From Acidobacteriota bacterium (lineage in GTDB: Bacteria; Acidobacteriota; Terriglobia; UBA7540), in contig CADDZE010000030.1 of assembly GCA_902812465.1 (NCBI GenBank), forward strand, positions 1-45,370: DNA of 45,370 bases. Direction: 5' to 3'. Shown here piece after piece: positions 33,242-34,222 of this stretch (position 1 is its first letter; every line of letters starts with the position of its first letter). The position numbers and the translations under genes are program-made. Under the pieces are notes generated by a model. It ran no database searches. It saw only the letters and a program-made list of their open reading frames with translations, and was not told the DNA's origin.

Positions 33242-34222
33242 CTACCGGGGCACGCGGCGCAAAGCCATCAACGTAAGGTCGTCACTGCGGCGCGCTCCGG
33301 CCAGGAATTGTTCCAGCTCGCCGAGGCAGGCCCGCACCAGCTCCGCCGGCGGAAGGTCCCGATACCGCCTGACACAATCAGCCAGGCGGCGTTCGCCGAA
33401 TTCCTCGTCTGCGCCAGACCGCGCCTCGGACGCCCCGTCGGTGTAGATAAACAGCGTGTCGCCCGGCATCAGCTTTGCGCGGCGCATCGCGTAGCTGCCC
33501 TCGCAGAACATCCCTACCGGCACACCGGTAGGCTCCAGCCGGGCCACTTGCCCTTCCTGCACGAGGAGGGGCGGACAGTGGCCCGCGTTGCAGAACTCGA
33601 TGCTGCCGTCGCCCAGGACGCGAAGGCAGACCAGCGTGGCGAAGTACGTGGAGAGCGTGCTCTCACAGAACAGGCGGCTGGCGCGCTCGACCAGCTGGTC
33701 AACGGGCAGGCCAACGGCAATCAGCGTGCGAAAGATCGCGTGCAAGTGTGACATCAGCATCGACGCGGTGATGCCCTTGCCCGCCGCGTCCCCGACGATG
33801 AGGAAGGCTTCATCGCCGCGCACCACCACGTCACAGTAATCGCCGCTGACGGCGCCCAGGGGAGCGTAATGGTAGGCCGCTTCCCAGCCGTCGAAGCGCC
33901 ATTGCGGTGGAGGTAGCAGATCGCGCTGCATGCGCGCCGCTGTCTCCAGATCCTGCTCGAGGGCGCTGCGCTCGGCTGGCGTCAGGTGGTCGAGGCAGTA
34001 GCGCACCAGCGGATCGCTGGCCAGCCGCTCGGCCTCAATCGATTCGTGGCAGGCCTCGCAAAGGCCGTAGGTCCCACGGTCCATCCGCTCGAGCGCCGAG
34101 TCGATCTCTTTCAGGAGCCGGCGGAGCCCAGGGTCTTCTGGAGACACACCGACCACCGAATCGAGCCGCCGCTTTCGCTCGACTAACTGGCGGCGAACAA
34201 AGCCGTCCGTCAGCATCTCCAT
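33242..34222 (-). CDS. SpoIIE-type PP2C phosphatase with N-terminal DksA/TraR-like zinc finger
   Basis: This 326-residue protein joins two domains. Residues about 1-85 resemble the DksA/TraR family: a coiled-coil-like segment, then GTYGLCEACHESIEAERL and, 17 residues later, CLDH. The predicted zinc ligands are Cys55, Cys58, Cys76 and His79 (C-x2-C-x17-C-x2-H). Residues about 95-326 are a SpoIIE/RsbU PP2C phosphatase with SGDYCDVV, GDAAGKGITASMLMSHL, NAGHCPPLL and TDGASEARS, which hold the metal-binding aspartates. Such phosphatases usually dephosphorylate anti-anti-sigma factors in partner-switching. No STAS or RsbW-like gene lies within this window, so the target is unknown. It is followed by the acyl-CoA dehydrogenase after 33 bp. 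Confidence 0.88.
   Translation of the reverse strand: MEMLTDGFVRRQLVERKRRLDSVVGVSPEDPGLRRLLKEIDSALERMDRGTYGLCEACHESIEAERLASDPLVRYCLDHLTPAERSALEQDLETAARMQRDLLPPPQWRFDGWEAAYHYAPLGAVSGDYCDVVVRGDEAFLIVGDAAGKGITASMLMSHLHAIFRTLIAVGLPVDQLVERASRLFCESTLSTYFATLVCLRVLGDGSIEFCNAGHCPPLLVQEGQVARLEPTGVPVGMFCEGSYAMRRAKLMPGDTLFIYTDGASEARSGADEEFGERRLADCVRRYRDLPPAELVRACLGELEQFLAGARRSDDLTLMALRRVPR

Follow-up and report, generated by a model that had tools for sequence, protein, structure and literature searches.

A shortened DksA-type zinc hairpin in the sensor position of a conserved SpoIIE phosphatase from Acidobacteriota

Architecture and conservation of the fusion

We find that a gene on the minus strand of a 45,370-nucleotide stretch of DNA from an Acidobacteriota bacterium (contig CADDZE010000030.1; the whole stretch is called the window below) encodes a DksA-type zinc finger fused to a SpoIIE phosphatase, and that this fusion is real, old and conserved. 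The DksA hairpin occupies the usual sensor position of a signalling phosphatase. The open reading frame at 33242-34222 has an ATG start codon, and both domains of its product exceed their curated Pfam cut-offs, in agreement with a preliminary description of the window that had proposed the fusion from the sequence alone: zf-dskA_traR (PF01258) matches residues 50-78 with 30.2 bits against a cut-off of 24.9 (E = 4.5e-7) and SpoIIE (PF07228) matches residues 137-323 with 151 bits against a cut-off of 25 (E = 4.8e-44). The NCBIfam model DksA_like also matches residues 35-80 (3.2e-12), yet it stays under its whole-protein cut-off. By sequence, the phosphatase is nearest among solved structures to Rv1364c, Pseudomonas aeruginosa RssB and SiaA, and the finger to DksA proteins. 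The features of the gene are as follows.

33242..34222, minus strand: whole gene, DksA-type zinc hairpin plus SpoIIE/PPM phosphatase, 326 residues (open reading frame, translation, Pfam PF01258 and PF07228, about 80 full-length homologues)
34076..34213, minus strand: two-helix hairpin, residues 4-49, a shortened DksA coiled coil with a variable tip at residues 22-35 (AlphaFold2, length comparison)
33983..34075, minus strand: DksA/TraR zinc finger, residues 50-80 (Pfam PF01258, ligand conservation)
34058-34060, 34049-34051, 33995-33997 and 33986-33988, minus strand: zinc ligands C55, C58, C76 and H79, in that order
33911..33979, minus strand: linker helix from finger to phosphatase, residues 82-104, with L88, L92, A95, Q99 and L102, then LLP (AlphaFold2 helix 82-102, column conservation)
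33254..33904, minus strand: SpoIIE/PPM phosphatase domain, residues 107-323, with metal-site residues D128, D145, D262 and D314/D315 (Pfam PF07228, fold matches in the PDB, invariance)

Immediately following the helix-turn-helix hairpin, C55, C58, C76 and H79 form the C-x2-C-x17-C-x2-H pattern exactly as it had first been read. A chance occurrence of this pattern is ruled out by the profile scores and the conservation, and an assembly or annotation artefact by the presence of the same full-length gene in about 80 genomes. Among 151 sampled genomes of the class we found 30 full-length homologues and a further one with its match broken in two; 396 genomes of the phylum Acidobacteriota gave 73 matches in many families, 53 of them spanning both domains by table count. 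A scan of named genomes returned a single full-length relative, a metagenome-assembled genome (MAG) labelled Acidobacteria. To look for a plasmid-borne fusion, we translated the three plasmid matches, from Actinomycetota, whose alignment took in most of the query or extended to the finger region; none of them has the finger.

Conservation was counted in an alignment of 81 full-length rows. The three cysteines are invariant (81 of 81), and position 79 holds His in 55 rows, Cys in 18, Asp in six, Glu in one and Arg in one. His or Cys is thus found in 73 rows, and at this fourth position a zinc ligand tolerates such a His-to-Cys exchange. Taken with the structural model, this pattern makes a zinc site in the N-terminal domain almost certain. 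The metal-binding aspartates of the phosphatase are equally constant (D128 and D145 in 81 of 81 rows; D262, D314 and D315 in all 79 rows with letters at these positions), and its active site is predicted to be intact.

Monomer structures were predicted with AlphaFold2 from the family alignment. The mean predicted local distance difference test (pLDDT) score reaches 89.6 over the whole protein and 85.6 when residues 1-105 are modelled by themselves; the predicted order is a helix at 4-26, a helix at 31-49, the finger, and a helix at 82-102 that runs into the phosphatase. The first two helices correspond to the short coiled coil that had been placed before the finger. When the N-terminal domain was searched alone with Foldseek, the first eight rows were DksA (Chlamydia, P. 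aeruginosa, E. coli and Agrobacterium), and with a second structural aligner the top six PDB matches were all DksA (Z 8.4-10.9; the next, unrelated chain scored 6.1). DksA proteins are the sole strong structural matches of this domain, so the outcome that would have spoken against the preliminary description, a domain unlike DksA, did not occur: in the predicted structure it has a true DksA-family fold. The whole model matches PPM phosphatases, namely RssB-PP2C (3f79), Rv1364c (3ke6) and SiaA (6k4e).

In a quick maximum-likelihood tree of phosphatase domains, the full-length fused proteins of the main type fall in one clade (Shimodaira-Hasegawa-like approximate likelihood ratio test, SH-aLRT, 99), and the other SpoIIE phosphatases of the genome lie outside it. 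The same clade holds seven rows without a full-length finger match (L104, L120, L121, L122, L123, L124 and L006). L104 and L124 are copies of the fused gene in which the N-terminal domain is recognisable but disrupted, L124 being broken by stops; judged by their sequences, these disruptions (stops or frame changes) may be read as pseudogenes or assembly errors. L122, almost the same in sequence as one fused protein, is probably disrupted too. The Verrucomicrobiota row L006 sits on a distant, long branch and its placement is unsafe. L120 and L121 are taken up below.

Hairpin length and the RNA polymerase secondary channel

The shortness of the hairpin is its key feature. Counted from the conserved aromatic residue that opens helix 1 up to the first cysteine of the finger, it is 47 residues long in the fusion, 74 in E. 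coli DksA, and 73 and 75 in L001 and L002, the two standalone DksA-like proteins that this genome also encodes, a shortfall of 26-28 residues. Each arm lacks about 13-14 residues, which at 1.5 angstroms per residue amounts to roughly 20 angstroms of helix. In the E. coli DksA sequence used, the finger cysteines and D71, D74, A76, R91, K98, R129 and K139 match the published numbers. The reduced length is nearly constant, with L13 to C55 spanning 42 residues in 59 rows and 39-45 across all 81, and variability within the N-terminal domain peaks at the tip (mean column entropy of 3.0 bits versus 1.3-1.9 elsewhere). The DxxDxA tip motif is absent from the window protein, and one of the 81 rows has a loose match, within its helix-1 part.

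The comparison with DksA/TraR factors (PF01258) therefore has two sides. Shared are the hairpin, a C-x2-C-x17-C-x2-(C/H) finger and a C-terminal helix. In the fusion, unlike in DksA, the hairpin is shortened, the tip is variable and lacks DxxDxA, and the C-terminal helix enters the phosphatase. L001 and L002 have the same finger type and helix-2 sequence as the fusion (for example IDHALERVAKGDYGVCESC), but they carry full-length hairpins and four cysteines and no phosphatase; the genome thus already encodes, in L002, a standalone protein with a full-length hairpin and a DIADKA tip. The preliminary description had likened the finger to that of DksA/TraR proteins, which enter the RNA polymerase secondary channel. 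Of that interpretation the DksA fold joined to a PP2C/SpoIIE phosphatase stands, whereas secondary-channel entry is not supported, given the short arms, the variable tip and the missing motif. From sequence and model, the shortening suggests that the fold may have been reused as a switch and would no longer act as a polymerase plug.

Linker helix, proposed mechanism and alternatives

The helix between finger and phosphatase carries heptad-spaced L88, L92, A95, Q99 and L102 in 74-80 of the 81 rows, and D91 is invariant. In RsbU and its relatives, dimerisation through a coiled-coil linker activates the phosphatase; this linker receives its input from exchangeable N-terminal domains, and polar residues at its core tune the enzyme (PMC12143880). 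The fusion shares with the PPM phosphatases RsbU, RsbP, RssB and Rv1364c the SpoIIE/PPM catalytic domain, an intact metal site and a preceding linker helix. It differs from the RsbU type in its input, which is a DksA zinc hairpin rather than a PAS, GAF, receiver or HAMP domain or the helical bundle of RsbU. We propose, with a confidence slightly above even, that the protein is a cytosolic RsbU-like Ser/Thr phosphatase in which the shortened DksA zinc hairpin serves as an exchangeable input or dimerisation domain and whose STAS-type substrates are encoded elsewhere. Two copies of the protein would pair through the hairpin, the linker or both, and a change at the finger, whether through zinc, thiol oxidation or partner binding, would alter the packing of the linker helix. 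This repacking could order the PPM switch helices, and dephosphorylation of STAS-type anti-sigma antagonists may start or stop as a result. On this view the DksA fold would have been taken over for sensing or dimerisation rather than for plugging the polymerase.

Several observations weigh against this proposal. Other SpoIIE phosphatases, L040 among them, share the linker pattern (A..IQ..LLP); for this reason the pattern indicates the type of machine and not the signal or control by the finger. The fourth ligand position holds Asp, Glu or Arg in eight of the 81 rows, and the finger could be merely structural. Finally, in L120 and L121 (genomes G457 and G449; same class, family f9) the finger is absent from open frames of 287-289 residues, and from its sequences this sublineage seems to have lost the finger and kept the phosphatase. 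What the finger does could naturally be judged by comparison with these two proteins.

A stricter version of the input-domain proposal is a thiol/zinc redox switch, in which oxidation would drive out the zinc, the hairpin would unfold and the activity of the phosphatase would change. Salmonella DksA provides a thiol-sensing precedent (PMC4815678), and zinc or redox sensing by the finger, which the preliminary description had also entertained, is more compatible with the anatomy of the protein than secondary-channel entry. The invariance of the three cysteines is in line with such a switch; a purely structural zinc, however, equally predicts a conserved three-Cys/His site, and no conserved redox gene is found among the neighbours. 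We regard this special case of the input-domain reading as unlikely, if the least so of the alternatives.

Somewhat less likely still is that the N-terminal domain docks at the rim of the secondary channel, so recruiting the phosphatase to the transcription machinery but having no action at the active centre. The fold is that of DksA, and the parts retained, namely the finger and the base of each helix, lie near the rim in DksA complexes; the stretch from tip to first cysteine, at about 27 residues, is presumably just a few residues shorter than in TraR. The short hairpin with its variable tip and lack of DxxDxA argues against docking, as does the finding that D74 at the tip of DksA is essential for activity and that R91, near the rim, aids function (PMC6488371). 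The ppGpp-contact positions of DksA are named in PMC7676912; at site 2, R91, K98, R129 and K139 correspond to G32, E39, D70 and L80 in the window protein. These residues are likewise not conserved in the two standalone proteins of the genome, and since the absence of K98, R129 and K139 (here E, D and L) is non-discriminating, we dropped the site as an argument against polymerase binding. We find it very doubtful that the hairpin docks the phosphatase on polymerase and thereby lets the state of the enzyme, or of its secondary channel, directly govern the release of an alternative sigma factor.

We consider it equally improbable that the N-terminal domain is a passive structural or dimerisation cap that senses nothing, with activity set by expression or by substrate supply: the strongly conserved fold core, the variable tip surface and the apparent loss of the finger in one sublineage would fit such a cap, but where a PPM phosphatase has a helical linker, control is typically exerted by way of the N-terminal domain (PMC12143880).

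Genomic context, a second lineage and significance

Under the input-domain proposal the substrates should be STAS proteins, and the genome of the window offers candidates. On another contig (C49), genes for an RsbV-like STAS protein with a DSSG motif and an RsbW-like ATPase are adjacent (L140:1465-2296), and further STAS proteins with a DSxG motif are encoded elsewhere in the genome. We propose these STAS proteins (C49, C20 and C14), including the one of the candidate partner-switching pair on C49, as candidate substrates.

The neighbours of the fused gene vary by sublineage, with tyrS upstream in the family of the window genome and aconitase and an RND pump in a third family. In another family (L081, L084-L088 and L094), the fused gene lies directly downstream of, and in the same direction as, genes for an MrfA-like helicase (DEAD plus MrfA Zn-binding domain) and an MrfB-like, RNase H-like nuclease. 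No constant neighbour gene was found across the sublineages, and the partner is for that reason probably unlinked; the search for an operon partner through guilt by association was dropped because the context differs between sublineages.

A second, divergent combination of a DksA-type finger with SpoIIE, having a different hairpin, is encoded at L125:678-1670 and L127:774-1781. These two proteins form a separate supported branch outside the main clade. When L127 was used to search 297 genomes, only that of L125 returned a same-type match covering both domains; this second type, found in two sampled genomes only, is rare.

We found no paper on the DksA plus SpoIIE architecture in the open-access library searched, in keeping with the preliminary description, which knew of no described system of this type; architecture databases may list it. 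Both halves and the probable class of mechanism are already known, and the combination is a variant of them. PPM phosphatases start general stress responses. Their control by diverse input domains was recently explained by a shared linker mechanism (PMC12143880). If our proposal is true, a DksA zinc hairpin acting as an input domain would extend the PPM input toolkit and would be a case of a transcription-factor fold reused as a signalling domain. It would also be a candidate zinc or redox input to sigma-factor control in Acidobacteriota, a phylum in which such pathways have been little studied.
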